Part shown: positions 43,783-62,432 of the stretch, piece by piece
Layout of the letters: each line of letters opens with the position of its first letter
How positions within the stretch are numbered: position 1 is the stretch's first letter
Assembly: GCF_002866025.1 (NCBI RefSeq)
Contig: NZ_LNDE01000001.1
Span: forward strand, 682,001-746,000
Length of the DNA: 64,000 bases
Source of the DNA: Thermotoga sp. KOL6
Lineage (GTDB): Bacteria > Thermotogota > Thermotogae > Thermotogales > Thermotogaceae
Reading direction: 5' to 3'
Notes under the pieces: model-generated
Database searches by the model: none
Told to the model about the DNA's origin: nothing
The model's input: the letters and a program-made list of their open reading frames with translations, nothing else
Position numbers and translations under genes: made by a program

Positions 43783-44769
43783 ATGCCAACAATAGAAGAT
43801 GTAGCAAAACTCGCCGGAGTTTCAATCGCCACCGTTTCAAGAGTGATAAATGGTTCTGGATACGTTTCAGAGAGAACCAGATACAAAGTTTGGAAAGCCA
43901 TAGAGGAGTTAGGATACAAACCGGAAATCTCTGCAAAAATACTGGCCTCAAAAGGAAAACTGTTCAATGTCAGCATCTTCGCAAGCAAGAGAATACTTTC
44001 TCCCCTCCAGAACAATGGTATCATAGGAGAATTCTACGGAGTGGTTATAAGGGCTATCGAAGAAAGTTGTGAAAAGCTCGGCATGAAAGTGGATGTCAAA
44101 CTTCTTGAGGATTTCTCAAATTCAGACAATTCAGATGGTTATATATTCGTTGGAGGAGATGTCTCAAAAGAAATTGTGAAAGAAACGAAGTCTAGAAAAA
44201 AACCCTTCGTTCTCGTAGATCACTACATACCTGGCGAAAGGGTAGATTGTGTGATAAGTGATGGATACGATGGAGCTCTTTATGCGACAAATTATCTCAT
44301 CTCAAAAGGATTCACAAAAATTGTTCATATTCACGGCCCTTTATGGCCTTACGGTTTCAAGATGAGATACGACGGGTACAAAGACGCTATGGAAAAAGCT
44401 GGATTGATGCCAAAATTCTATGAATGTGATGACACAGAAGACGGCGCAAAAAAAGTGGTGGATATAATGTTGAATTCTTATGGAGTTCCCGAAGGAATAT
44501 TCACATCAAACGACAGTATAGCATTCTGGGTTATCAACAGGTTGAAGGAACACGGATTGAAAATCCCGGAAGATGTGTCCGTAATAGGATTCGACGATAT
44601 CGTTGACGCGGAAAATTTTGATCCACCTTTGACCACTTTGAGGGTTTTCAAATACGAAATGGGATGCCTCGCATGTAAGCGCTTACATGAGTTGTTGACG
44701 AAAGTCAATCCACATCCTGTTCGAATACTTGTTTTCACCCAATTTGTAAAAAGAAAAAGCACGAAATAG
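43783..44769 (+). CDS. LacI-family regulator of the mannose-glycan locus
   Basis: A 328-residue repressor. The N-terminal domain (TIEDVAKLAGVSIATVSRVIN, then YKVWKAIEELGYKPE) is the LacI helix-turn-helix and hinge. A periplasmic-binding-protein-like sensor domain follows (FVLVDHY near 145, GVPEGIFTSNDSIAFWVI near 230, VIGFDDI near 265). It heads the operon of sugar transporter and GH130 genes. Two near-identical palindromes, one at its promoter and one inside its own 3' coding end, are its probable operators. The inducer is likely a mannose-containing sugar, an inference from context. Confidence 0.92.
   Translation: MPTIEDVAKLAGVSIATVSRVINGSGYVSERTRYKVWKAIEELGYKPEISAKILASKGKLFNVSIFASKRILSPLQNNGIIGEFYGVVIRAIEESCEKLGMKVDVKLLEDFSNSDNSDGYIFVGGDVSKEIVKETKSRKKPFVLVDHYIPGERVDCVISDGYDGALYATNYLISKGFTKIVHIHGPLWPYGFKMRYDGYKDAMEKAGLMPKFYECDDTEDGAKKVVDIMLNSYGVPEGIFTSNDSIAFWVINRLKEHGLKIPEDVSVIGFDDIVDAENFDPPLTTLRVFKYEMGCLACKRLHELLTKVNPHPVRILVFTQFVKRKSTK
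44673..44688. promoter_or_regulatory. LacI-type operator inside the regulator coding sequence
   Basis: ATGTAAGCGCTTACAT is a perfect 16-bp palindrome sharing its 14-bp core with the operator at 43756. It encodes part of CKRLHE in the repressor and lies 116 bases before the sugar-binding protein gene. Confidence 0.75.
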
Positions 44770-46122: not shown

Positions 46123-47463
46123 ATGCGGCAGATTTTTCTTTTTTTAATTGTTATTTCGTCAATTGCAATAATGTTTGGCGGGACATTTTCTATACCTATA
46201 GATGCAGGCTCCATGGAAGTCCCCGTAGTAATCCGAATGTCGGATCTTTTGGATTTCATTCCAGAAGATTTTGAACCTGTTTGGAGTAGTTTGAAAGTGA
46301 CTTTTGAAGGAAAAGAAGTTCCTTTCCAAATTGAAGATGTAGACGGAAACAGCAGAATTTCTTCAAAAGATTTTCTCGTCTTCCTAGCAAAAGGTGAGGG
46401 AAAAATTGTCATAGCAGATCAATCTATAGAGAGTATCTCCTACAAAAAGGCGTTTGAGATTACAAAAGTTGATTCAGGATGGCAGATAAAAACAATCGAT
46501 GGAAGGTTGGAAGCTTTTGTAAATGATCATGGTCTTGCAAAAATCACAAAGTTTGGTGATGTTGAGGCAACTTTGCTTGATGAGATAGGCATAGCACGTG
46601 TTAGTGGTTGGCCGGAGTCAACCTTTTACGTTGATGGTAAACTGGGAAAGCATTACGAAGAAACTTCTGGTGCTTTTAGAGTGGTCTCAACGAAAGTTTT
46701 GGAACCCGGACCTTTAGCAGCTGGAATCATTGCAACCCTTGAATCTGAAAAGTTTAAGGGATTGGTTCAGGAACTTGTCGTTCATATATTCAAAAATGGA
46801 GACATACTCGTTGACAACACTTTCAGATTCGAAAATTACGCTGATATGATGAAGGTTCAAACTATGGTAACGAGACCAATAGCTCCAGCTCTTGAAGATG
46901 CGGTCCACATTCTACCTGTGTTTAGAAGGCTTGTTTGGGCAGATCAATTGGGCATAACTCCTTATGAATATTGGCTCGAAAGAAATGCGATCACTCTAGT
47001 AGATAGAATACCTTATATTGTCTTTCCAGCTACTGATCCCATGAAACCACTTTGGTGGGGAGCAACTTACATATTTGCCTCCATGGAGAGATGGAGAAGT
47101 AACTTCTCACCGGGAAAGAAAATAGGTATTGCTGAGATACTGCCGGAAATCCCTGTAGTTCCTGCGGTATACAAAAAATGGATCGATGGAGACACATGGG
47201 TTTACGAAAGCTTGGAATTCAGGGATGGCGTTTTCAAATGGATACCCAGTGAATTCGATGTTTATCCAGCAACAAAGGGCGCTTATTCTCTGAAGCTTGA
47301 AAACATGCCGAATCATTACAAACACGGTGACACTGTGCGTCATCTGAGGCTTTTCACGCTGTATAGCGCAGAAAACGTGACGGATGCCATAAAACTCCTC
47401 GAGAAAAAAAGTGAATCCTTCAGGAAATTGAAAATAGGGGAAAAGCCTTTCAAGGAATTCTAG
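46123..47463 (+). CDS. Secreted protein of unknown function in the glycan locus (beta-sandwich, DUF4861-like start)
   Basis: A 446-residue protein with a signal peptide (residues 1-19). I do not recognise it firmly. The first mature segment, MEVPVVIRMSDLLDFIP and QIEDVDGNSRISSKDFLVFLAKG (about 24-85), resembles the opening domain of DUF4861-type and other carbohydrate-acting proteins. The remainder is rich in beta strands and in Trp and Tyr (LGITPYEYWLERN, PLWWGATYIFASMERWR), compatible with sugar binding or hydrolysis. It lies between the binding protein and a barrel-type protein in the same operon, so a role in cutting or binding extracellular glycans is an inference. RBS AGGGGGAG. Confidence 0.65.
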   Translation: MRQIFLFLIVISSIAIMFGGTFSIPIDAGSMEVPVVIRMSDLLDFIPEDFEPVWSSLKVTFEGKEVPFQIEDVDGNSRISSKDFLVFLAKGEGKIVIADQSIESISYKKAFEITKVDSGWQIKTIDGRLEAFVNDHGLAKITKFGDVEATLLDEIGIARVSGWPESTFYVDGKLGKHYEETSGAFRVVSTKVLEPGPLAAGIIATLESEKFKGLVQELVVHIFKNGDILVDNTFRFENYADMMKVQTMVTRPIAPALEDAVHILPVFRRLVWADQLGITPYEYWLERNAITLVDRIPYIVFPATDPMKPLWWGATYIFASMERWRSNFSPGKKIGIAEILPEIPVVPAVYKKWIDGDTWVYESLEFRDGVFKWIPSEFDVYPATKGAYSLKLENMPNHYKHGDTVRHLRLFTLYSAENVTDAIKLLEKKSESFRKLKIGEKPFKEF

Positions 47464-47483
47464 TATTTCCAGGGGGCGAAGAG

Positions 47484-49631
47484 ATGAAAATAAGGATTGC
47501 TTGGATTTCGTTGTTTTCTCTGGCAGGCATCCTTTTCACATTAACGTTGAACACTACGCACCTAGAAAGACTTTCAGTTTGGTTCATGCTGGGGAATGAG
47601 AAAGTAAAGGGATACTGGGTTTATGCAGAAAAAATAGACGGGGAATATAAAGGAATAGGTGCAAAAAACGAGGGAGACTTCTGCGTAGATGATGCCGCCA
47701 GAGTCATCCTTTTCTATTCCGAAGCATATGAGATCACAAAGAATGAGAAATATCTGACCCTCGCTATGGATGCAGCAAAGTTTGTTATAAAGATGCAGGC
47801 ATCCGATGGAAACTTTTATAACTTCGCGTATCTTGACGGTACCATTAATAAATACGGCCCAACGAGCGCCAAAAAAACCTCTTCTTGGTGGACTTTAAGA
47901 GCATTCTGGGGATTGTCCAAATTGGCTCAATTCACGAAGGATGAAAACATAATAAAAGCTGTACAAAAAGCGTACAATGCCTTGAAAAAATCTCCTCCTA
48001 AGTCTGGAGACAAACTCGCTCTCTATATTTTGGGATTATCGAGCTACAACAAGATCCAAAACGTAGAAGATGATATAAAATTCTTCAGTGATGAGCTCCT
48101 GAAATTCCAAGTCACCAATGGTTGCTTCCAGGGATTCTTTTCTACTGAGAAGGAGCACTTCAGATGGCATGGTTGGGGGAATAGATACGCCGAAGCTCTT
48201 GTTGAGGCTTATAAGATAACAATGGATCCTAAATATCTTGAGGCAGCGAAAAAATCCTTAGAGATTCAAATACCTATTTTACTTGGAACTGGACTGATAT
48301 ATTCAATAGAAAACCACTTGAAACTCTTTCCAGAGCTTTCGTACTCACTAGATTGCACTGTAACTCCTGCTGTCAAAATCTATAGACTCACTGGTGAAGA
48401 AGAATTCGCATATCTAGCTTCTTTGGGTGCTTCCTGGCTTTTTGGAGGTAACAGATTAGGTGTTCCAATGATGGGACCCAACGGCGAAGGATACGATGGC
48501 CTCGAATACATGCATGTTAACCAAAATGCTGGTGCTGAGTCAACCGTGAGTGCTTTAAGAGTGGTGCTTCATTCGCTCACTCTACCGGAAAAATTCATAA
48601 AGCTCATTGAATCACCCACAATCGTCTCCCGAAACGGTATCACCGTCATAGAAGCAGAAGGAATGGATCCTGGTATTTCTCCTGTTGAACTCGTCTTGGG
48701 GAATTACGGTGGAGGAGCTGCTTTTAAGTTTGAAGAGGGAACCAGACTTAAAAAAGAACTAAGCGTACCATCAGGTACCTATCGTTTACTTGTTTCTGGT
48801 AACTTTTCCCCCACGTCAATCATTGTGATTTCTAATGATTCAAAGCTGAGATCCTCCCTCACTGGTCAAGGATTGTTCGACATTGGTTCTCTTGATGTTG
48901 ATAAAAATATAAGGGTAGTGCTCTCTGGAAAGGGGATTTTAGACCAGATCATAATGATCCCCAACATTGTTGGGGTAAGCTTCAAAGAAGGAGACAGAAC
49001 GAAAAGTATTGTTTACGATTTCAAGAGTAGTGCTTTAAAACTGTTGAATTATCAAGTTTTCGAGAAACAAAAGCAAAGAAAAGAGGAGGTAGTCCAGATA
49101 AAAACAGTCAATATGGATAATTTTATACTCCTTGATATTAAACCCTTGTTCAACAACGACGGATTTGGTACACCCTCATCCCCTGGAAACTTCGACAATC
49201 TTGGCGGTATTGTGGGAGCATATTTACCCGCTCAGGAGATGTCTGAGGGAATAGTGAAAATAAACGACATACCCTTTATATTACACGTAAGTGGCTTAGA
49301 CAACGTGAGATGTGTTGGACAGAAAATCATTCTACCAGAGACTTTAAAAGTGAAAAACGCATATTTACTTGCAGCATCCAATCATGGAGATTATGAAATA
49401 AGAGTATCCTTTGAGGATAAAGCTATTTTAGAAAAAATAACTGATTGGTGCAAACCAGACAAAACTATCTCGTTCGATTATCGCTTCACAGCGAGCGGAG
49501 AAAAGCAGTTCATAAAATGTGGAATAGATTTATACGTGTTTCACGTAGATTCAAACGTGAAAGAAATAAAGTTACCAGAAGAAGTAAATGTCCATATTTT
49601 TGCTATAACACTCGAGGTTGATACGCGGTAA
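47484..49631 (+). CDS. Putative secreted or membrane-anchored (alpha/alpha)-barrel glycosidase-like protein
   Basis: A 715-residue protein with an N-terminal hydrophobic segment (residues 4-22). Residues about 55-350 show helical-hairpin repeats of the six-hairpin glycosidase type: GDFCVDDAARVILFYSEAYE, MQASDGNFYNFAYLDG, WWTLRAFWGLSKL, WHGWGNRYAEALVEAY. The paired Asp of CVDDAAR and Asp of QASDGNF are candidate acids. Residues about 395-480 and 500-715 look like two beta-sandwich modules, perhaps carbohydrate binding. I cannot assign a GH family; GH76- or GH125-like alpha-mannan activity would suit the locus but is a guess. It lies 20 bases after the preceding gene. Confidence 0.6.
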   Translation: MKIRIAWISLFSLAGILFTLTLNTTHLERLSVWFMLGNEKVKGYWVYAEKIDGEYKGIGAKNEGDFCVDDAARVILFYSEAYEITKNEKYLTLAMDAAKFVIKMQASDGNFYNFAYLDGTINKYGPTSAKKTSSWWTLRAFWGLSKLAQFTKDENIIKAVQKAYNALKKSPPKSGDKLALYILGLSSYNKIQNVEDDIKFFSDELLKFQVTNGCFQGFFSTEKEHFRWHGWGNRYAEALVEAYKITMDPKYLEAAKKSLEIQIPILLGTGLIYSIENHLKLFPELSYSLDCTVTPAVKIYRLTGEEEFAYLASLGASWLFGGNRLGVPMMGPNGEGYDGLEYMHVNQNAGAESTVSALRVVLHSLTLPEKFIKLIESPTIVSRNGITVIEAEGMDPGISPVELVLGNYGGGAAFKFEEGTRLKKELSVPSGTYRLLVSGNFSPTSIIVISNDSKLRSSLTGQGLFDIGSLDVDKNIRVVLSGKGILDQIIMIPNIVGVSFKEGDRTKSIVYDFKSSALKLLNYQVFEKQKQRKEEVVQIKTVNMDNFILLDIKPLFNNDGFGTPSSPGNFDNLGGIVGAYLPAQEMSEGIVKINDIPFILHVSGLDNVRCVGQKIILPETLKVKNAYLLAASNHGDYEIRVSFEDKAILEKITDWCKPDKTISFDYRFTASGEKQFIKCGIDLYVFHVDSNVKEIKLPEEVNVHIFAITLEVDTR

Positions 49632-52245: not shown

Positions 52246-52252
52246 AAAAAGA

Positions 52253-52281
52253 AAAGCATGGCAGCTATGCTGCCATGCTTT
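52253..52281. terminator. Bidirectional terminator between convergent glycan operons
   Basis: A perfect 13-bp stem, AAAGCATGGCAGC (52253-52265) with GCTGCCATGCTTT (52269-52281) and loop TAT. It separates the LacI operon from the minus-strand operon. Confidence 0.92.
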
Positions 52282-52283
52282 CA

Positions 52284-53102
52284 TTATTTGAACCCAGACA
52301 ACTTTATTCCCTCTATCAGATATTTTTGTGCAAATAAAAAGAAGACAATTGTCGGTATCAAAGTCAATATTGATGCTGCAGCTGCTTGATTCCAATAAGT
52401 ACCATATCTACTCATAAAAGTTGGCATACCCAAAGCAAGTGGATATTTTTCCTCACTCATTAAATAAATCAACGGTCCCATATAGTTGTTCCAGCTTCCC
52501 ACAAAAGTAAACACCGATATTAAAGCTAACACAGGTTTTGACATTGGTAGCATTATCCTAAAAAATATCTTTAAATCACCGGCACCATCTATTCTTGCAG
52601 CCTCCAACAACTCATTGGGTATAGTATTGAAGAATTGTCTTATCAAAAACACATTCATTGCCCCGCCACCCAAAAAAGCTGGAACAACAAGCGGCAAAAA
52701 TGTGTCTATCCAGCCTAATTTCCTAAAAATTAAAAACACAGGTATCATAGTGACGGCCCCTGGCAACATAATTGTAGACATCATTATTCCAAAAAATATC
52801 TCTCGGCCTTTCCAATTTATTTTTGAGAATCCATATGCAACTAAGGGAGCAGATATTAAAACACCTATAACGTTCCCTACAGTTATAATCACGCTATTTT
52901 TCAAGTACATAAGGAATGGGAACTTCTTAAGTGCTTTTGCGTAATTAGACCAGTCGGGATTCTCTGGAAAAAACCTGGGAGGATACTCCAAAAGTTCACG
53001 ATCTGGCTTCAGAGAGGTTCCCAATGTCCAGATAAACGGAAGAAGATAGATAAAAACTATCAAAATTAAAAGTGCTCTTCTCACTATGTAGAACTTCTTC
53101 AT
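52284..53102 (-). CDS. ABC sugar transporter permease (MalG-type)
   Basis: A 272-residue permease with six helices and the EAA loop EAARIDGAGDLKIFFRIMLP near residue 180. It is the last gene of the minus-strand operon, 18 bases after its partner. Its coding sequence reads visibly richer in A and T (many ATA, TTA and AAA codons) than the permease pair at 49650-51340, which suggests separate origin. Substrate inferred as the GH85 product. Confidence 0.92.
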   Translation of the reverse strand: MKKFYIVRRALLILIVFIYLLPFIWTLGTSLKPDRELLEYPPRFFPENPDWSNYAKALKKFPFLMYLKNSVIITVGNVIGVLISAPLVAYGFSKINWKGREIFFGIMMSTIMLPGAVTMIPVFLIFRKLGWIDTFLPLVVPAFLGGGAMNVFLIRQFFNTIPNELLEAARIDGAGDLKIFFRIMLPMSKPVLALISVFTFVGSWNNYMGPLIYLMSEEKYPLALGMPTFMSRYGTYWNQAAAASILTLIPTIVFFLFAQKYLIEGIKLSGFK

Positions 53103-53120
53103 TTTCTCCCTCCCTAAAAC

Positions 53121-53999
53121 TCAGTACTGATAATGTACCCACCTTTTTGAGGTAATGAAATAGATAGCAATAAATATGGCTGTCAAACCAAATAATACCC
53201 ATGCCATGGCAGAAGCGTATCCCATGTTAACGTAAGTAAACGCATGCCTATAGATATACATGGTGAGAGATAAACTGGAGTTCGCGGGGCCTCCGTTGGT
53301 CAATAACATAGGAAGATCAAATATCTGAAGAGCACCAATAGTGGATGTGACTAAATAATACAAAATGGTTGGCGTTATTAGAGGCAGTGTTATTTTGGTA
53401 AACATCGTGAAAGGTTTAGCACCATCAATTAATGCACTTTCATAGAGTTCTTTAGGTATATCCTTTAAAGCAGCCGAAAAAATCAACATCGCCCCTCCTA
53501 CTCCCCACTGGGAAGCTATTATTATGGTAGGCTTTACCCATTTTTCACTACTCAGCCAAAGCGGAGCAGGTATTCCTATAGCTTCAAGAATTTTATTAAC
53601 AAAACCTAAGTAAGGATGAAAGAACCATGTTACTACCGCCGCAAATGCAAAAGCAGGTACTATTGAAGGCATATATATAGAAGCCCGATAAAAAGCTACT
53701 TCTTTCATTGGTTTGTTCAGTAAAATTGCTATTCCAAGAGCGACCACCAATCCAATGGGAACCAAACCAGCTGCATAAATGAGAGTGTTTTTTAAACTCT
53801 TCCAGAAAAGGGGATCATTGAACAACTTTATGTAATTTTCAAAACCAACCCACTTAGCTTTCATGGTTACGTTATACCGTGTCAGTGATAAATAAAAAGA
53901 CGAAAATAAAGGATAAGCTGTGAATATTATGAAACCTAACAACCAAGGAGAGATGAAAAGAATACCTTTAAAAAAATTTCTCAAGTCTTTCTTGGTCAT
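53121..53999 (-). CDS. ABC sugar transporter permease (MalF-type)
   Basis: A 292-residue permease with six helices. The EAA-type loop reads ESALIDGAKPFTMFTKITLP near residue 190, with Ser in place of the first Ala. It starts at ATG 53999 behind GGAGGGAATC. It sits between a hairpin after the GH85 gene and the MalG-type partner. As in the other operon, no ATPase is encoded. Confidence 0.92.
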   Translation of the reverse strand: MTKKDLRNFFKGILFISPWLLGFIIFTAYPLFSSFYLSLTRYNVTMKAKWVGFENYIKLFNDPLFWKSLKNTLIYAAGLVPIGLVVALGIAILLNKPMKEVAFYRASIYMPSIVPAFAFAAVVTWFFHPYLGFVNKILEAIGIPAPLWLSSEKWVKPTIIIASQWGVGGAMLIFSAALKDIPKELYESALIDGAKPFTMFTKITLPLITPTILYYLVTSTIGALQIFDLPMLLTNGGPANSSLSLTMYIYRHAFTYVNMGYASAMAWVLFGLTAIFIAIYFITSKRWVHYQY

Positions 54000-54024
54000 A
54001 TTGTAAGATTCCCTCCTTTTTTTA

Positions 54025-54056
54025 AAACCCTGGGGGAAGAAAGACCCCCAGGGTTT
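54025..54056 (-). terminator. Intra-operon hairpin between the GH85 and permease genes
   Basis: AAACCCTGGGGG (54025-54036) and CCCCCAGGGTTT (54045-54056), a 12-bp stem with an 8-base loop, followed on the minus strand by TTTTAAAAAAAGG. The T tract is short, so partial termination or 3' end protection is likely. Confidence 0.6.
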
Positions 54057-54068
54057 CCTTCACCATTC

Positions 54069-56732
54069 TCAAAAACTTTCTAGACCGTAAACTTCAACTT
54101 CATAAATTCTGGCGGCTGTGTCGCCCACCTGTGTTGGTGTTTCTACAAACAACCTGAGATATCTAGCTTTCACCGGTGGGAAAGCATGCTCAGTAACACT
54201 TTTAGTGTTTCCTTTGACAATCACCACATCTTTCCATGTTTCTAAATCATTACTTACTTGAATTCTGTAATCCTTAGTGTTCCAATCTGGACTCTCGTGT
54301 CCCTCTTCCGCGTGTTTTATAACAACTCTGTTCACAATAACTTCCTTTCCAAAGTCAATGACCAGCCAATGAGGAGGTTTACCTACTGCACACCACTTAC
54401 TGTTGTTTTCAACTGTACCATCAACCGCTAATTCAGGTTTTTCTGCAGGAACATGTGAGCTTGCAAAAGCTCGTTTCCCAAGAGCCAAATTCTTTACTTC
54501 TTTCGCTCTAGTTGTTACAACAATCATGGGATTCACCAACTTTGCATCTTCACCTTCAGTATTAATTGCGATCAATGCTGCTGGATAGATTCCCTCCTTG
54601 AGATATTTCACTGTTGGGTTCCATTCTCTAGAGACAGAAGGAGTAGCACCTGGAAGGATCCAAACAACTTTTTCTGTAACCTCAGAAGAGAGATTCCTGA
54701 AACTCACAGTTTCTCCCGGAGCAATTATAGTGTTGCTCACTTCAAAGTCTGCTTTTGGCGCAGGATAAGGTGGCCATTCAAAAGTCACTTCTCCTGGCTT
54801 TCCTCTGTTTCTATCTTTTGAGACAGCCACCACTTGGAGGGTTGTCACCTTTTCCTTTCCGAACCTTTTCATATGAGCAATGTAAGTATAGTTGTTGTAT
54901 GTAACCCATACAAGCTCTTTGTTACCGTTAGGATACAACCTGTATATCTCATAGTATTCAGCTCCTTTAACTGGATACCAATGTAGTCTTATTTGTGCGT
55001 ATATCCCATTCTCAAATTCAGTGGCATCGATTTTTATATTTTTCACCTGATCTGGTTCAGTAGTCATTCGAGGCACAATTTTTATCATGCCAATATTGAA
55101 AGCGTATTCCGTATCTATCAATCCCTTTATCTTCAGGGATATGTACCTTACAACCCCCTTGATATCGAGAATGTACTTTGTTATATTCCAATCTTCAGAA
55201 AGAATGAGCGGATATTCTTTCTGGAGACCATCTTTCATTGTGAGAACAAGACTTACAGAAATGTCACCTTTTCCTTTGATAGCACTTTCTAAAGTGACAG
55301 GTTGGTCTATATTCAAATCTGCTAGGTAAAGTGTTACAATCGTTGTTTCATCCTTGCTGAGCTTTCCAGAGATCCGGAGTGATGAACCTCCATAATAAGC
55401 TGTTGAGTAATCAACAGAAATTGTTGGTATAGGTCCCTCTACTTTCCATCTATAGGTTGGAAAAACATCCATCAAACTTCTGTTGTTCCACTCGCTACCA
55501 CTTAACTTTTTCCCATTCACGAAAAAGCTTTTACCATGTCCAGCACAGAAATAAGTGACAAAAGGAAGTTCGGTAATTGGGGATTTTTCCACAACAAATT
55601 TTGCTGGAGACTGCCACCTATACTGAGGATAATCTCCCCAATCCTTGTTGATAAACTCTTCTTTGTAACTGTAAACAAGAGTTGGATGATCTGCTATCCA
55701 AAGTGTTTCTTCTTTCCTCCAAAATTCTTCTATGGTTTTTGAGGAGTAATAAGACCAGCTTGGACAGTACAAAGCCAAAGGAAGTTTCAAAGAACCATCT
55801 TCATTTTGATTCTTAGGGAAATTGGCGTACGTGTTGTATCCGTTAGCCTGTAAATCTATCCCCAGAAAGACTCTATCTGGATTTATTCCATATTTTTCCA
55901 TAGTTGAGAGAGTATTCTCTATCGTTTTCTCCCTCTTCAAAGATTGCCATCTATAGTCTATAAAAATTGAATCAGCTAATGGAGATCCATCGTCATCTAC
56001 GAGAAACACCACGTTTTTCTCGTTGAGTTCCCCCTGCCATTCTATTTCGCCAGTTTTTGTCATGGCATCGTACCAAACTATTATCATCCAAGGAGCTTTT
56101 GTCTTTATATACCTTATAAACTCTCTCATAAGTTTCGCATGCTCAGGTTTGCAACCATTGGTTTCCTGGTTAATGAACCATCCATCGAAACCGTAATATT
56201 CAGCAACTTCTATTAATTTGTCCGCTATTGGAAACCTTCCGTCTTCTTTTCTTAAAAACTGATCTACCCAGTTTCTTCGTCCACCATATACGTTTGGAGG
56301 GAAGAAAATTGTTCCAAGCACTGGTACCCCATTCTTGTGGGCAACGTCGATTACATCAGCACTTGGCGGAACTATGATTCCTTCACCAGCGGATCCTGCC
56401 CATGCTACTAGGTAATCCACATATTGCCAAAAACTGAAAGGATACGTTTTGAACGAATTGTTCAACCCTTGCGATGGCATACCGCTCGTTGAAGGATTCA
56501 TTATTGATAAAACCATAATTTTCATGTCTTTTCTAGCAACATCCGTAATAGGATCACCAATAATTCTCTTCGCTAATGGAACATGAGATCGATTGTATAC
56601 AGCATTTGGATCATTGCTTGGAGACCAATCTAAAAGATCGTTTGGGAACCAATAAGATGATTCGGGAATATTAGAGAAAATCATAGAAACAAAAAGAATT
56701 GAGAATACAAGAAGAAGGAACTTAGATTTCAT
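54069..56732 (-). CDS. Secreted GH85 endo-beta-N-acetylglucosaminidase with PKD-like and F5/8C modules
   Basis: An 887-residue secreted enzyme. After a signal peptide (residues 1-20) comes a GH85 TIM barrel (about 25-350). FDGWFINQET places the catalytic Asn188 and Glu190 (NxE, substrate-assisted mechanism), and IVWYDAMTKTGEIEWQ supplies Tyr221. These enzymes cut between the two GlcNAc residues of the N-glycan chitobiose core. A beta-sandwich (about 430-560), a fibronectin-III-like module (about 570-660), a PKD-like module (about 665-740) and a C-terminal F5/8 type C/CBM32-like module (about 750-885) follow. RBS CAGGAGGTG. I do not recall GH85 from T. maritima, so it may be an acquisition. 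Confidence 0.88.
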   Translation of the reverse strand: MKSKFLLLVFSILFVSMIFSNIPESSYWFPNDLLDWSPSNDPNAVYNRSHVPLAKRIIGDPITDVARKDMKIMVLSIMNPSTSGMPSQGLNNSFKTYPFSFWQYVDYLVAWAGSAGEGIIVPPSADVIDVAHKNGVPVLGTIFFPPNVYGGRRNWVDQFLRKEDGRFPIADKLIEVAEYYGFDGWFINQETNGCKPEHAKLMREFIRYIKTKAPWMIIVWYDAMTKTGEIEWQGELNEKNVVFLVDDDGSPLADSIFIDYRWQSLKREKTIENTLSTMEKYGINPDRVFLGIDLQANGYNTYANFPKNQNEDGSLKLPLALYCPSWSYYSSKTIEEFWRKEETLWIADHPTLVYSYKEEFINKDWGDYPQYRWQSPAKFVVEKSPITELPFVTYFCAGHGKSFFVNGKKLSGSEWNNRSLMDVFPTYRWKVEGPIPTISVDYSTAYYGGSSLRISGKLSKDETTIVTLYLADLNIDQPVTLESAIKGKGDISVSLVLTMKDGLQKEYPLILSEDWNITKYILDIKGVVRYISLKIKGLIDTEYAFNIGMIKIVPRMTTEPDQVKNIKIDATEFENGIYAQIRLHWYPVKGAEYYEIYRLYPNGNKELVWVTYNNYTYIAHMKRFGKEKVTTLQVVAVSKDRNRGKPGEVTFEWPPYPAPKADFEVSNTIIAPGETVSFRNLSSEVTEKVVWILPGATPSVSREWNPTVKYLKEGIYPAALIAINTEGEDAKLVNPMIVVTTRAKEVKNLALGKRAFASSHVPAEKPELAVDGTVENNSKWCAVGKPPHWLVIDFGKEVIVNRVVIKHAEEGHESPDWNTKDYRIQVSNDLETWKDVVIVKGNTKSVTEHAFPPVKARYLRLFVETPTQVGDTAARIYEVEVYGLESF

Positions 56733-56772
56733 TAAAAAACACCTCCTGTATTAAACATGATGATCACTATAA

Positions 56773-56791
56773 GGGAGGGTAGCACCCTCCC
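56773..56791 (-). terminator. Intra-operon hairpin after the sugar-binding protein gene
   Basis: GGGAGGGT (56773-56780), loop AGC, ACCCTCCC (56784-56791). No real T tract follows on the minus strand, so mRNA stabilisation is more likely than full termination. Confidence 0.55.
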
Positions 56792-56798
56792 ATAGATT

Positions 56799-58070
56799 TT
56801 ATTCTCTCGACTCAACTTCTTTCATAATTTCATCATATGCTTCCTGGACCTCTTTTTGCGCATCCATTAATGCCTCTTCAACCGTTTTTTTACCGGTTAA
56901 AACATAATCACGAGCTTCAACAAGTTTATCCCAAAGCAACGCACCAACTGGAACAGGAGGTCTTATTTTGGCGTTTTGAAGCAGATCAACAAATACTTTC
57001 TGGTCGGGATCTTTTTTCAAAAATTCCTCGACAGCTGGTTTGTAAGTAGGAATGTGGAGAGTATCCACTGCGTATCTAACCTGTCCTTTGGTTGCGATAA
57101 AAAGTGCAAGCCTTGCAGCTTCCTTTGGATGTTTTGCTCCCCTCGGTATTGCAAGACTCCATCCTCCACACCAAGTAACGTTTTTCCCACTCTTGGTAGG
57201 GATACCTGCTATTCCATATTTGAAATCCGGGGGGGCAAACAAGCGAAGACCCGAAAGAGTCCAATTCCCATCGACAAGCATAGCGAGTTTTCCAGCAGTA
57301 AAAACGTTGAGGTCGCCTATTTGCATGGACGCAAAAGCATTCAAAGCTTCATATCCAAATCTATCAGCCCATTCCTTCTGCCATTTGTAAGATTCAATCA
57401 CACCAGGATCGGTCGCAAAAACGAATTTCCCAGTCTTTTCATCGAAGACCTTTCCTTCAAATGCAAATATCCAAGTGTACGGCCAACCCTGGGCATACCA
57501 AGGAATGAATCCAACAGTTTCGTATCTTCCCCTCTTTCCCTCAACCGTTAATTTTTCTGCAACATCTATGAGTTCATAAATGGTTTTGGGAGGCTCTTTA
57601 TAACCAGCTTTAGCGAGCAAATCAGGATTGTAGAACAAAACTCTTACATCTGTGTCAAAGGGAAGTGCCCACATTTTTCCATTGAATGTACATTCTCTAA
57701 TTGCGAAATCGTAGAAATCCTTTTTCAAATTCTCAACATCCACTCCTAACTCTTTAAGGTAATCTTCCATAGGCTCTAAAACATTTTGAGCGGCTCTTTG
57801 TGGAATAGTGAACCTATCCAAGTAAACAAGATCGGGCCCTGTCCCAGCTGCAACAGCCGTAATGAGCTTTGTAGCATCTGTTTCTCCGGCAGGCACAACT
57901 ACAACTTTCACTTTAATATCTGGATTTTCTTTCTCAAATTCCTTCACGATGGCGTCGATACTACTCTTGTCTGGATCTCTAGGAAGGGTGTGCCAGAACA
58001 CGATCTCTGTTGCCGCTATCAAATAAGCGGAAAACAGCATCATCAAAAAAACCAGCAGAAATCTCTTCAC
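56799..58070 (-). CDS. ABC sugar-binding protein (extracellular solute-binding family 1)
   Basis: A 423-residue binding protein with a signal peptide (VKRFLLVFLMMLFSAYLIAA). The mature protein begins TEIVFWHTLPRDPDKSSIDAIVKEFEKENPD, a typical family 1 start, and GTGPDLVYLDRF near 80 and GKMWALPFDTDVRVLFYN near 135 are conserved. The second GTG (58070) is better spaced from GGGAGGTGG than the first (58079). It heads the operon with GH85 and two permeases, so an oligomannose-GlcNAc ligand is likely. Unlike the homologue at 44804 it is uninterrupted. Confidence 0.93.
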   Translation of the reverse strand: MKRFLLVFLMMLFSAYLIAATEIVFWHTLPRDPDKSSIDAIVKEFEKENPDIKVKVVVVPAGETDATKLITAVAAGTGPDLVYLDRFTIPQRAAQNVLEPMEDYLKELGVDVENLKKDFYDFAIRECTFNGKMWALPFDTDVRVLFYNPDLLAKAGYKEPPKTIYELIDVAEKLTVEGKRGRYETVGFIPWYAQGWPYTWIFAFEGKVFDEKTGKFVFATDPGVIESYKWQKEWADRFGYEALNAFASMQIGDLNVFTAGKLAMLVDGNWTLSGLRLFAPPDFKYGIAGIPTKSGKNVTWCGGWSLAIPRGAKHPKEAARLALFIATKGQVRYAVDTLHIPTYKPAVEEFLKKDPDQKVFVDLLQNAKIRPPVPVGALLWDKLVEARDYVLTGKKTVEEALMDAQKEVQEAYDEIMKEVESRE

Positions 58071-58112
58071 GAAAACCACCTCCCAAATTGAAAATGATGT
58101 TTCTCCACCCTA

Positions 58113-58143
58113 ATTCTACATGATCAAACCGGTATATACAAGT
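58113..58143 (-). promoter_or_regulatory. Promoter and palindromic operator of the SBP-GH85 operon
   Basis: On the minus strand TTGTAT (complement of 58136-58141), 17 bases, TAGAAT (complement of 58113-58118). The 16-bp element ACCGGTATATACAAGT (58128-58143), pattern ACnnGTATATACnnGT, covers the -35 box and part of the spacer. It is shared with the GH38 promoter, so it is the likely site of the GntR-type regulator. Confidence 0.75.
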
Positions 58144-58203
58144 TATATCAAGTAAAAATAATAAGAACACAACGTTACTAGAAAGTTTCTCAAAAATAAA
58201 CGA

Positions 58204-59220
58204 TCACTTACACCCACAAGATTCTCTAATAACTAATTCTACATCCACTCTTTTTATTTTTTCTACTCTTTCTTTCTTGAGAATACTTATCAAAGTTTGA
58301 ACAGCTTCTTCACCGACTTTTTCCAAATATTGTCTTATTGTAGTTATTGAAGGCAAAGTGATTTTTGAGAACGGTTCGTCGTCATAACCAAATACTTTGA
58401 CATCATTTGGTACTTTTATTCCAAATTTGAGAAAATAACAGATCCCTCTTAAAGCAATCGTGTCGTTACAGAAAAAAACTGCGTCTATTTCTTTATTTTT
58501 CACGTAATCAACCAAGTTGATAAGATCCGCTCTCAAAGAAGGAAGCTTGAAGATCTCCGGCTGGTAACCAAGAGCTTCCGAAAGCCCACTGTATCTTTCC
58601 CTTACACTTATTATTGATAGATCCTCATGACTAACAAATAAAACTTTCCTGACATTATGAATTTGCACCATATGTTTTCCTATGAGAAACCCTCCTTTGT
58701 AATTGTCCGATAAAATGGTCGGGGTTGAAAAATTGCCAGGAATCGTTCGATCAACAAACACGACAGGAAATCCCTCATCAATTAGTCGACTGAGAAGCTC
58801 GTTGGCAGCAGAAGTTGCATAAGGCTCTATGATCAAACCATCTATCCCATATTTCAGAAGTTGAGATAAAGACTCTCTTTCTCTGTTTAAATCACCTGTT
58901 TGGTCGAAAACAAAATACTTCATATTTTCCATTGTAAGAGCTGATATTATTCCATACATGATTCTCCTATTGTGCACTATAACCCCAACTTTTTTATTCG
59001 AGAGAATGTTAGAATCATAAATAAAAGTCCCCACTCCAGGAACCCTTTTTATAATCTGTCTTGCCTCAAGCTCTTTGAGAGCTCTTCGTACCGTCATTCT
59101 TGTTGTGTTGAACTTTGCGGCTAATTCATTTTCTGAAGGGATTTTCTCACCAGGTTTTATTTCACCTTTCAATATTATCTCTTCTAAATAATTAATTATC
59201 TTCACGTATTTAGGAAGCAT
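58204..59220 (-). CDS. GntR/LacI-hybrid transcriptional regulator (AraR-like architecture)
   Basis: A 338-residue regulator that joins a GntR winged helix (LEEIILKGEIKPGEKIPSE, ELAAKFNTTRMTVRRALKEL, VPGVGTF, residues 10-70) to a LacI-type sugar-binding domain (about 80-335, with GLIIEPYATSAANELLSRL, VFVDRTIPG and VFGYDDEPFSKITLPSITTI). AraR of Bacillus has this layout. ATG at 59220 fits AAGGAG better than GTG at 59229. The protein ends CGCK. It lies between the SBP-GH85 operon and the divergent GH38 gene, each of which has a matching palindrome at the promoter, so it is very probably their repressor. Confidence 0.9.
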   Translation of the reverse strand: MLPKYVKIINYLEEIILKGEIKPGEKIPSENELAAKFNTTRMTVRRALKELEARQIIKRVPGVGTFIYDSNILSNKKVGVIVHNRRIMYGIISALTMENMKYFVFDQTGDLNRERESLSQLLKYGIDGLIIEPYATSAANELLSRLIDEGFPVVFVDRTIPGNFSTPTILSDNYKGGFLIGKHMVQIHNVRKVLFVSHEDLSIISVRERYSGLSEALGYQPEIFKLPSLRADLINLVDYVKNKEIDAVFFCNDTIALRGICYFLKFGIKVPNDVKVFGYDDEPFSKITLPSITTIRQYLEKVGEEAVQTLISILKKERVEKIKRVDVELVIRESCGCK

Positions 59221-59302
59221 TTCAAACACTCCTTTCTATTCGTTTTCAAAATAAATTTTATCATTATGTTATGACGATTAACCAAATGTACAACAAGATG
59301 AA

Positions 59303-59323
59303 ACATGTATATACTGGTATAAT
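59303..59323 (+). promoter_or_regulatory. Operator and extended -10 promoter of the alpha-mannosidase gene
   Basis: ACATGTATATACTGGT (59303-59318) fits ACnnGTATATACnnGT and abuts TATAAT (59318-59323), which has an extended TGG in front. CTGG-TATAAT-CCAG is also a small inverted repeat. A second TATAAT lies at 59338-59343. Confidence 0.72.
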
Positions 59324-59384
59324 CCAGAAAAAAGATGTATAATTTTAACATCCGAATTAATTTTTTCGAAGGGAGGAAACAGCT

Positions 59385-62300
59385 GTGAATTATCATCTAC
59401 TGAAAATGATATCAGAAATGTTCCCCTACATATTTGTTAAAAAAGTTCCCCTCACAAACTGGTTCTTTAGTGAAAACTCCTGCGATAAAAAACCTAGCAG
59501 ATATGAAAAAACAGTCAACCCCGGTTTTGAGTGGAACTTTCATGCTGCCCCGGTGTGGTTCAAAAAGGAGTTAGAACCTATTTCAATTGAGGACGATCAA
59601 AAAGTTTACCTTAAATTGTGGTTTGGTGGTGAAACTCTTATCTTCGTGGATGGGAAACCCTACGGTGAGATCAACGAACACCACAGAATGCTGAATATAA
59701 CTCCCTTAGCGGATGGGAAAACACATTTGATAGAAGCACAAACGGTTCCCAGAGGACTTTTCGGAAAGCCCGAGCATCCCATTTTTTCTGAAGCATACCT
59801 CCTTGTTATTGATGAGAAAATAAAAGAAGTGTTGAAGACACTCGAACTCACGATAAAGACAGCCGAAACAATCGATGACGAAGTACTTTCTAGAAAACTC
59901 ATCAGATTGACTGAAAATTTCCTTTCGAAGATATGGATTCCGCGTGACACACAAACTTATCTGAAAGCTTCTCAAGAAGATCCAGGAATAAAAATGGAAA
60001 TCCAAAATGTTTGGTCCAGCCCTGATTTTGGAGAATTCACCGGTATGAAACTCCCAAATGATTTGAAAAGAAACCTCATCGAAGAATTCGAAAAATTCAA
60101 AATCGAACTGGAAAAAGTGAAAAGGAATGGTCCTGGTTATGGAACGGTTCACCTCGTTGGGCATGCTCATATAGATTACGCATGGCTCTGGCCAGTTGAA
60201 GAGACAAAAAGAAAAATCCTTCGTACCTTCGCCAACTCGGTGTTGCTTTCAAGATTGTATCCAGAATTCGTCTACACTCAATCTTCTGCCCAGATGTATG
60301 AGGATCTCAAGAAGAACTCGCCGGAGCTCTTCGAAGAAGTCAAGAAACTGGTGAAAGACGGTCGATGGGAACCCGTCGGCGGCATGTGGGTAGAGGCAGA
60401 TTGCAATGTTCCATCGGTGGAGTCTCTGGTGAGACAGTTCTACTATGGACAAAAGTTCTTCGAGAAGGAGTTCGGTAAAAAGAGCAAAGTTTGCTGGCTC
60501 CCTGACGTATTTGGGTTCTCTTGGATCCTGCCGCAAATTCTTAAAGGAGTTGGGATAGACTATTTCGTCACTACAAAGCTCAATTGGAACGATACGAACG
60601 AGTTTCCGTATGATATATGCCGTTGGAGAGGAATAGACGGATCAGAGGTTCTTTACTACAGTTTCAAAAATCCGAACGAGGGCTACAACGGAAAAATAGA
60701 TCCGGACACTGTGTACAAAACATGGAAGAATTTCAGGCAGAAGGATCTCTTAGATAGTGTGCTTCTTTCTTTTGGTTACGGTGATGGTGGCGGAGGTCCA
60801 ACGGAAGATATGCTAGAAAACTACAGAATAATGAAAAAGATACCCGGAATTCCAAGACTCGAAATAGGAAGCGTTGAAGAGTTCTTTGAAAAAACAAATC
60901 TCACCGAAGAACTTCCTATTTGGGATGGTGAACTCTATCTCGAACTTCACAGAGGAACTTACACTTCACAATCCAGAACGAAAAGATTACACAAGGAATC
61001 AGAAGATGCCCTTTACAAAGCCGAATTGATTTCTTCCTTGACAAACAAGGATTTCTCCGAAGAAATAGATGAGCTTTGGAAGATCCTTCTGAGGAACGAA
61101 TTCCACGACATTCTACCGGGTTCTTCCATAAAAGAGGTTTACGAAACCACCGAAAAAGAACTATCCTACGTTGAAAAAAGAGCCAACACAATCGTAGAAG
61201 AGTCATTGAAAATACTTTCCGATGGTGATAAGAAAACACTTACACTTTTGAACGTCTCTTCTTTTCCAAGAAAATGCTACTTTTTCACAAACGAAAAATT
61301 GAATCTTTCCTCGGAGATCGGACCAGTTCTGAGACAGGCAACGCATGATGGAAGATACGTCTACTTTTTAGATTTTGAGTTGGAACCTTTCTCGAAAATC
61401 GAGTTGAAAGTCCAAGATGAGGAATCGCACGAAAAAATGCCAAAAAGAAACGATCTTTCTATGGAAAATGAATACTTGAAAGTTTCCGTGAATCCGGATG
61501 GAACGATCCAAATTTACGACAAGGAAGCAGACAGATACGCATTTGAAGATAGAGGAAACTATCTGAAACTTCACAAGAACATTCCGCCTCATTGGGATAA
61601 CTGGGATATAGCCGAAGGTGTAGAAAAGACTGGATATCCTCTGAAGGCAAAAAAGATAGAAAAGATTGAATTCGGTCCTGTGAGGGAGGTTATTCGTGTC
61701 GAATACGAAGCAGAAGGCAGTAAAATTTTTCAGTACTACGTTCTATACAGGAAGAGCAAAAGACTTGATATAGAGACAAAAATCGACTGGCATACAAGAA
61801 GGGCTCTCCTCAGGGTGTATTTTCCCATCAACGTTCTGTCAAGAATCGCAAAATTCGATATCTCAGGTGGATTCATCGAACGGCCAACTCACAAGAATAC
61901 GAAATTTGAACAGGCAAGGTTCGAAGTTCCGGGTCACAGATGGATGGATCTCTCACAAACAGATTTTGGTGTTTCTACTTTGAACGATGGAAAGTATGGA
62001 TACAGTGTTCAAGAAAACATGGTTGGGCTTTCCCTTATAAAGGCCGGAATTTTCCCTGATTTTCTTTCTGACGAAGGACAGCATGAATTCGTCTACTCCG
62101 TCTACCCTCATCTTGGAAACGATTTGAGAGGTACTATAAAAGAAGCCGAAGAATTGAACAAACCACTTCTTGTTCATTTTGGAAAGCTTGATATTCCGTC
62201 ACCTCTCCTAGAAATCAAACCTAGAAGCTTCAAGCTTACATCCTTTAGAAAAGCAAACGGAAAATTCATCGTAAGACTCGTTGAAATCTTTGGAACAGCC

Positions 62301-62432
62301 GGCAAACTTTCTATTAAGCTCCCTTGGAACAAGAGAATATACCTCACTGATCTTTTGGAGGAAAAAAGAGAGGATGTTCATTTTCCCATGAATTATCGTC
62401 CGTTCAAAATCTACACTTTCATTGCTGAATAA
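59385..62432 (+). CDS. GH38 alpha-mannosidase (cytosolic)
   Basis: A 1015-residue exo-acting enzyme without a signal peptide. HAHIDYAWLWP (260-270) gives His and Asp metal ligands, WLPDVFGFSW near 371-380 holds the nucleophile Asp374 next to a further ligand region, and RNEFHDILPGSS near 577-590 supplies the last histidine. A jelly-roll N-terminal domain and a large C-terminal beta-sandwich domain follow the family plan (as in T. maritima TM1851). It releases alpha-linked mannose, requiring a divalent metal such as Zn or Co. GTG start behind GGGAGG. Its cytosolic location places it after import of the GH85 product. Confidence 0.95.
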   Translation: MNYHLLKMISEMFPYIFVKKVPLTNWFFSENSCDKKPSRYEKTVNPGFEWNFHAAPVWFKKELEPISIEDDQKVYLKLWFGGETLIFVDGKPYGEINEHHRMLNITPLADGKTHLIEAQTVPRGLFGKPEHPIFSEAYLLVIDEKIKEVLKTLELTIKTAETIDDEVLSRKLIRLTENFLSKIWIPRDTQTYLKASQEDPGIKMEIQNVWSSPDFGEFTGMKLPNDLKRNLIEEFEKFKIELEKVKRNGPGYGTVHLVGHAHIDYAWLWPVEETKRKILRTFANSVLLSRLYPEFVYTQSSAQMYEDLKKNSPELFEEVKKLVKDGRWEPVGGMWVEADCNVPSVESLVRQFYYGQKFFEKEFGKKSKVCWLPDVFGFSWILPQILKGVGIDYFVTTKLNWNDTNEFPYDICRWRGIDGSEVLYYSFKNPNEGYNGKIDPDTVYKTWKNFRQKDLLDSVLLSFGYGDGGGGPTEDMLENYRIMKKIPGIPRLEIGSVEEFFEKTNLTEELPIWDGELYLELHRGTYTSQSRTKRLHKESEDALYKAELISSLTNKDFSEEIDELWKILLRNEFHDILPGSSIKEVYETTEKELSYVEKRANTIVEESLKILSDGDKKTLTLLNVSSFPRKCYFFTNEKLNLSSEIGPVLRQATHDGRYVYFLDFELEPFSKIELKVQDEESHEKMPKRNDLSMENEYLKVSVNPDGTIQIYDKEADRYAFEDRGNYLKLHKNIPPHWDNWDIAEGVEKTGYPLKAKKIEKIEFGPVREVIRVEYEAEGSKIFQYYVLYRKSKRLDIETKIDWHTRRALLRVYFPINVLSRIAKFDISGGFIERPTHKNTKFEQARFEVPGHRWMDLSQTDFGVSTLNDGKYGYSVQENMVGLSLIKAGIFPDFLSDEGQHEFVYSVYPHLGNDLRGTIKEAEELNKPLLVHFGKLDIPSPLLEIKPRSFKLTSFRKANGKFIVRLVEIFGTAGKLSIKLPWNKRIYLTDLLEEKREDVHFPMNYRPFKIYTFIAE

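Follow-up and report, generated by a model that had tools for sequence, protein, structure and literature searches.

Do two short palindromes on either side of a regulatory gene in Thermotoga sp. KOL6 join an endo-beta-N-acetylglucosaminidase of family GH85 and an alpha-mannosidase of family GH38 in a single regulon? Such a regulon was proposed in the initial annotation of the window, the whole 64-kb stretch of DNA analysed here, and comparative genomics supports it through sites at orthologous promoters, co-occurrence of site and regulator, and one genome (G007) in which the two are unlinked. It is highly probable that the palindromes, O1 and O2, are the operators of the adjacent GntR/LacI hybrid protein, which would govern a two-site regulon, most likely as a dimeric repressor.

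Both 16-bp elements are present where they had been reported and share the pattern ACnnGTATATACnnGT, which each matches exactly. The candidate operator O1 (ACCGGTATATACAAGT, positions 58128..58143) lies between the regulatory gene, gntR, and the operon that begins with a solute-binding protein (SBP) gene and GH85. The candidate operator O2 (ACATGTATATACTGGT, positions 59303..59318) lies in the divergent intergenic region of gntR and GH38, so that gntR stands between the two. Read in one orientation, the two sites are identical at 14 of 16 positions (ACCGGTATATACAAGT and ACCAGTATATACATGT). No other exact match to ACnnGTATATACnnGT turned up, either in the window, where no third copy had been seen, or in the genome-wide search for the 16-mer (1,708,152 bp). 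A first-order Markov model predicts 0.014 exact copies per genome, and the reversed pattern, read backwards as a control, has 0 exact matches in the genome. The GTATATAC core is likewise present within the window at O1 and O2 only. A search of the genome for a third site with up to two mismatches gave 46 matches, against 47 for the reversed control; as looser matches are at the control level, a two-site regulon is the best reading for this genome. Both sites are imperfect palindromes, each two bases away from the consensus ACCTGTATATACAGGT, and this consensus, built only from other genera, ranks O1 and O2 at the top of the genome with two mismatches each.

The gntR gene (58204..59229, minus strand) encodes 341 amino acids, with a GntR winged helix-turn-helix domain (PF00392, 75.8 bits, cut-off 27) and a LacI-type periplasmic-binding domain (PF13377, 78.9 bits), which bears out its earlier description as a GntR/LacI hybrid. 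The N-terminal domain places the product in the GntR family. Models of the LacI family match it only from about residue 79 or later, its N-terminus being of GntR type, and models of the HutC subfamily match only up to about residue 77, with no UTRA/chorismate-lyase-like domain among the Pfam matches. The AraR subfamily of GntR proteins is chimeric, with a GntR N-terminus and a GalR/LacI C-terminal domain (PMC4494728). This is the build of the gntR product, which also matches the structure of the AraR effector domain (3tb6, E 1.1e-16). The AraR operator has been described as At(T/A)tGTaCGTAcaa(A/T)T, where R41 contacts G5, E30 influences T6 and G62 lies close to the ends (PMC4218819). O1, O2 and the orthologous sites are 16-bp palindromes with G5 T6 and A11 C12, as in that subfamily. 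In an alignment to the DNA-binding domain 4egy, residues E33, R44, R48 and G65 of the gntR product correspond to AraR E30, R41, R45 and G62, and all four are invariant across 22 relatives. The GTATATAC core and its GT-N4-AC frame are also compatible with the GntR/HutC-type operator consensus NyGTMTAKACNy (PMC4494728). The protein was considered as an AraR orthologue, that is, as the arabinose repressor, and this was rejected: the locus has no arabinose genes, and separate AraR-like proteins, about 31% identical to the gntR product, are encoded beside an araA-like gene in the same-genus genomes G003 and G005. The proposed AraR class therefore stands for architecture and for the 16-bp operator frame, and falls for orthology.

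From O1 the minus strand encodes SBP, GH85, permease 1 and permease 2, and from O2 the plus strand encodes GH38. The ABC transporter SBP (56799..58079, minus strand; PF01547, 144.6 bits; start maybe the GTG at 58070) is 71-78% identical to the SBPs of other GH85 operons. It is followed by the GH85 gene (54069..56732, minus strand; PF03644, 269.2 bits), whose product carries a C-terminal F5/8 type C domain, aligns with the Endo-A structure 3fhq (E 2.3e-117) and retains the FINQET catalytic segment. Enzymes of this family act on the GlcNAc-GlcNAc bond. A hydrophobic, signal-like N-terminus, noticed by eye, suggests that the protein is probably secreted. The permeases (both PF00528, minus strand) lie at 53121..53999 and, as last gene of the operon, 52284..53102, and are 68-78% and 69-81% identical, respectively, to their counterparts in other GH85 operons. 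The GH38 product (59385..62432, plus strand; 1015 aa; PF01074, 314.3 bits, with PF09261 and PF07748) has no evident signal peptide, and its closest solved relatives are Ams1-type alpha-mannosidases. Downstream of permease 2, a scan placed a bidirectional terminator-like hairpin (52252..52282) between the GH85 operon and a converging operon headed by a LacI-family gene and containing GH130, although the count of such hairpins in the region equals that expected by chance. The GH130 gene of the window was considered as a further regulon member and rejected, as it is part of the LacI-headed operon and has no site. Its nearest match is a beta-1,2-mannobiose phosphorylase, with a score of 367 bits against a cut-off of 450, and the GH130 of the orthologous operons described below (P0005) has no close homologue in the genome (best 34%).

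The position of the sites relative to promoters differs in clarity. The GH38 gene has a TATAAT -10 box (59318..59323, plus strand) whose first base also serves as the final base of O2; a TGG at 59315-59317 precedes it in the manner of extended -10 promoters, so the statement that O2 abuts this box is well founded. A TATAAW-like box abutting the site recurs beside most orthologous sites. The promoter scan gave another GH38 candidate, TGTACA-17-TATACT, with its second hexamer within O2, as well as a possible gntR promoter, TGTACA-18-CATAAT (59263..59292, minus strand; a consensus match only), with O2 just upstream. For the SBP-GH85 operon, O1 had been described as covering the -35 box. A possible promoter can be read by eye (58113..58141, minus strand), in which TTGTAT (58141-58136), inside O1, is separated by 17 nt from TAGAAT (58118-58113). 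The overlap is plausible but weak, since the -35-like hexamer matches the consensus at 3 of 6 positions and the pair did not reach the reporting threshold of the scan.

Homologues of the regulator were sought in 61 genomes, and their gene neighbourhoods were compared; in other Thermotogales, relatives are encoded in operons with SBP, GH85, two permeases, GH38 and, in several cases, GH130. The initial annotation had made its case depend on the motif occurring upstream of orthologous genes, and the motif does occur there in related genomes, including upstream of GH38 in G007. Four genomes (G017, G019, G021 and G027) have the order SBP-GH85-permease-permease-GH130-GntR-GH38, in which SBP is preceded by the perfect palindrome ACCTGTATATACAGGT. 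A site also precedes the SBP-GH85 operon in G036, which has two overlapping sites, the first being ACTTGTATATACAAGT, in G040 (ACCTGTATATACATGT) and in G043 (GCCTGTATATACAGGT, one outer base changed). On the metagenome-assembled contig L079 the site at the SBP promoter is ACCTGTCTATACAGGT, with one core change, and in G044 the contig begins within GH85, leaving the SBP promoter outside its assembly. In several GH85 genomes the flanks have diverged while the 16-mer persists. A sister clade that lacks GH85 (G001, G016 and G018) has the order GntR-site-SBP-permease-permease-GH38, the site being ACTTGTATATACAAGT, or GGTTGTATATACAAGA in G001. Across 14 aligned sites, positions 4-6 (TGT), 8-12 and 15, numbered from the start of the 16-mer, are invariant, position 4 only in the orientation read, its mirror position 13 being variable. 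Close to the regulator start, more distant relatives (identity about 34-38%) carry palindromes that resemble ACATGTCATTACATGT, in the same frame with a different centre. Palindromes of the form AC-N2-GT-N4-AC-N2-GT, with another central tetranucleotide, were observed at the starts of distant regulators at L057:9481, L060:9517, L061:10601 and L062:10589.

The two enzymes differ in how constantly they accompany the regulator. GH85 was found in 9 of the 61 relatives, each time in the regulator's own locus, and these related cassettes are non-independent observations. In the two close clades, the regulator has GH38 as neighbour or target in all loci read except that of G040, where the contig ends first; GH38 occurs without GH85 in the regulons of G001, G016, G018, G007 and G024, and a GH38-type gene is also present in the distant-regulator loci (by blastp, confirmed with Pfam for those tested). 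The most constant target is thus GH38 rather than GH85, which favours a mannose-containing effector over a GlcNAc-defined one. Two further loci were noted in passing. L076, a contig titled as a Thermodesulfovibrio MAG, carries a related GntR-site-GH38-SBP-permease-permease-GH92 locus, and in L080:9701-17795 (a Spirochaetales MAG) a distant regulator has as neighbours an SBP and a GH38-like protein of 1317 aa.

Site and regulator were then compared over 103 Thermotogota genomes. Of the 14 genomes that encode a regulator with at least 40% identity, 10 have an exact intergenic site; of the 89 others, none has. The 40% threshold was set after the identities had been seen. The search for the regulator itself covered 61 of the 103 genomes, and the remaining 42, all of which lie outside the order, were counted as without a close regulator. 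A Fisher test on these counts gives p = 4.2e-11, with shared ancestry making the genomes less independent than this value implies. The four regulator genomes that lack the exact site are G001 and G024, which have GTATATAC-cored variants, G043, with its changed outer base, and G044, whose promoter is unassembled. Exact matches in five genomes lacking a close regulator (G008, G009, G031, G039 and G046) were discarded, as all five fall within genes. An additional match in G018 was set aside as a coincidental occurrence at the boundary of a repeat in a CRISPR array (L164:9738-10379); an Rfam search of it returned nothing. The best single test of the pairing of regulator and operator is G007. Its regulator orthologue, the closest of all (53%), is an orphan surrounded by housekeeping genes (folD-, xseA-, sfsA- and mfd-like). 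The sole exact site in the genome is found on another contig, in front of GH38 at a distance of about 100 bp; no GH85 was found in this genome. With regulator and site on separate contigs, linkage cannot account for their pairing.

These data bear on what the palindromes are and on whose they are. That they are chance AT-rich or promoter-like words is scarcely credible: matches with two mismatches do occur at background frequency in the genome and O2 does share a base with TATAAT, but the exact sites are unique to the locus, are kept upstream of orthologous genes and follow the distribution of the regulator in the phylum, the unlinked case included. The sites could instead belong to a different regulator, and candidates exist, namely the LacI-family protein at 43783-44769, whose gene heads the adjoining mannoside operon, and three further GntR-domain proteins encoded in the genome. 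Yet a LacI gene about 86% identical is found in G001, G002, G004 and G005, all of them without the exact site, and G007 has just two other GntR proteins above the cut-off (frames of about 140 codons) while still carrying one site upstream of GH38, which makes another owner very improbable.

How the regulator acts and what it senses are separate matters. The bond targeted by GH85 enzymes would suit a protein that senses GlcNAc or chitobiose and governs a chitin-type regulon. The GntR-family proteins DasR and NagR do bind dre-site operators (PMC4333415, PMC4918961). Such an effector is nevertheless unlikely here, given that five regulons (G001, G016, G018, G007 and G024) have GH38 without GH85, and that GH38 also stands beside distant regulators with altered sites and, together with GH92, in L076. 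Activation, or repression of one promoter only, also appears decidedly improbable. The place of O2, directly upstream of the predicted hexamers of the gntR promoter, could suit an activator; however, O2 shares a base with the -10 box of GH38, O1 overlaps the SBP promoter region, and AraR and NagR are both repressors (PMC4218819 and PMC4333415). It is from this position of the sites and this analogy that we infer repression rather than activation.

The favoured reading is thus that O1 and O2 are bound by the gntR product, O1 controlling the SBP-GH85-permease-permease operon and O2 controlling GH38 and perhaps gntR too. In the absence of sugar, a dimer of the regulator would lie across the promoters. 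A mannose-containing sugar, either mannose or an oligosaccharide imported by the transporter of the locus, would bind the LacI-type domain and release the dimer. The gene content suggests a role in N-glycan utilisation, in which the secreted GH85 would free oligomannose-GlcNAc from glycoproteins, the ABC transporter would import it, and a cytoplasmic GH38 would remove alpha-mannose.

Analysis of gene order and DNA alignment in the genus indicates how GH38 may have come under this control. A segment of about 7.1 kb (52246..59384) lies between GH130 and GH38, with the order permease 2-permease 1-GH85-SBP-gntR, inverted. In G002, G004, G005 and G006 the gap between GH130 and GH38 is only about 16 bp and GH38 ends the operon, which is headed by a LacI gene in G002, G004 and G005; the same-genus genomes G002-G006 have neither a close regulator nor exact sites. 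DNA similarity to G002, G004, G005 and G006 ends at about 52245, the end of GH130, and restarts at about 59505-59607, which is about 120 to 220 bp inside GH38. Arrival of GH38 with the cassette is disfavoured, as the gene is 72-73% identical along its whole length to the resident GH38s of the genus and groups with them; the simplest view is that it is resident. The SBP, GH85 and permeases are closest to those of other GH85 operons. G001 has a different cassette, comprising a sister-clade GntR, site, SBP and permeases, in the same GH130/GH38 junction. The simplest account would be that insertion of the cassette cut GH38 off from LacI control and placed it under O2. GH38, which here has its own promoter and candidate operator, seems to have been recruited by insertion of the cassette into a LacI-headed operon. 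Elsewhere in the LacI operon, two genes at 46123-49631 (446 and 715 aa), with no confident family, show within the genus far faster divergence (56-67% between genomes) than the genes around them (86-95%).

A wider scenario can be offered only tentatively, and we think it rather doubtful as a whole: a mobile N-glycan-foraging cassette, with its AraR-type regulator and operators, would have entered a LacI-headed mannoside operon and rewired GH38, and its substrate in hot habitats would include crenarchaeal chitobiose-cored N-glycans and not only eukaryotic glycoproteins. Archaeal glycoproteins are a conceivable, if speculative, substrate, since a chitobiose core is present in the N-glycans of crenarchaea (PMC8993221).

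Taken at the level of sequence, a real and conserved regulatory system is well supported. It constitutes a new group of orthologues that combine the architecture of the AraR subfamily with a defined candidate operator. Its mechanism is ordinary and its target new. A search of the open-access literature found no description of this regulon. For the foraging of protein glycans by thermophilic Thermotogota, the locus offers a specific candidate operator and regulator that can readily be put to the test, and it extends AraR-type hybrid regulators from pentoses to apparent alpha-mannosides. It also presents a case in which the rewiring of a resident gene through cassette insertion can be read in sister genomes, and it points to thermostable GH85 and GH38 enzymes and to a sugar-responsive thermophilic switch.

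Several known systems resemble parts of this one. The sugar regulons of Thermotoga (AraR, UxaR, ManR, ChiR and others) are likewise local sets of transporter and glycosidase genes with one regulator each, in the available text of the T. maritima regulon study (PMC3750489). That text names AraR and UxaR as GntR regulators and the mannose regulator ManR as a ROK protein, and a regulator of the present kind was not found in it. NagR and DasR, of the HutC subfamily, share the GT-N4-AC spacing in their dre-sites and the position upstream of amino-sugar genes (PMC4333415, PMC4494728); they differ in having an effector domain of UTRA/chorismate-lyase type, whereas that of the regulator described here is of LacI type. 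In the N-glycan system of Streptococcus pneumoniae (PMC5215778), a secreted GH85 (EndoD), an oligomannose-GlcNAc ABC importer (NgtS-P1-P2) and SpGH38 provide the same set of functions as is predicted here from the genes. The S. pneumoniae genes are in separate loci, with GH92, GH125 and GH20, while GH85, importer and GH38 are here in one locus, belonging to a thermophile and apparently under a GntR/LacI hybrid. The nearest parallel in regulation is AraR of Bacillus subtilis, which has the same GntR N-terminus and LacI/GalR-type C-terminal domain, with the contact residues kept, and a 16-bp palindromic operator with GT at positions 5-6 and AC at 11-12 (PMC4218819). The sites described here differ from the AraR operator in the outer bases, having AC..GT ends, and in the centre (GTATATAC, compared with GTACGTAC in AraR), and the genes predicted to be controlled are of alpha-mannoside/N-glycan type.
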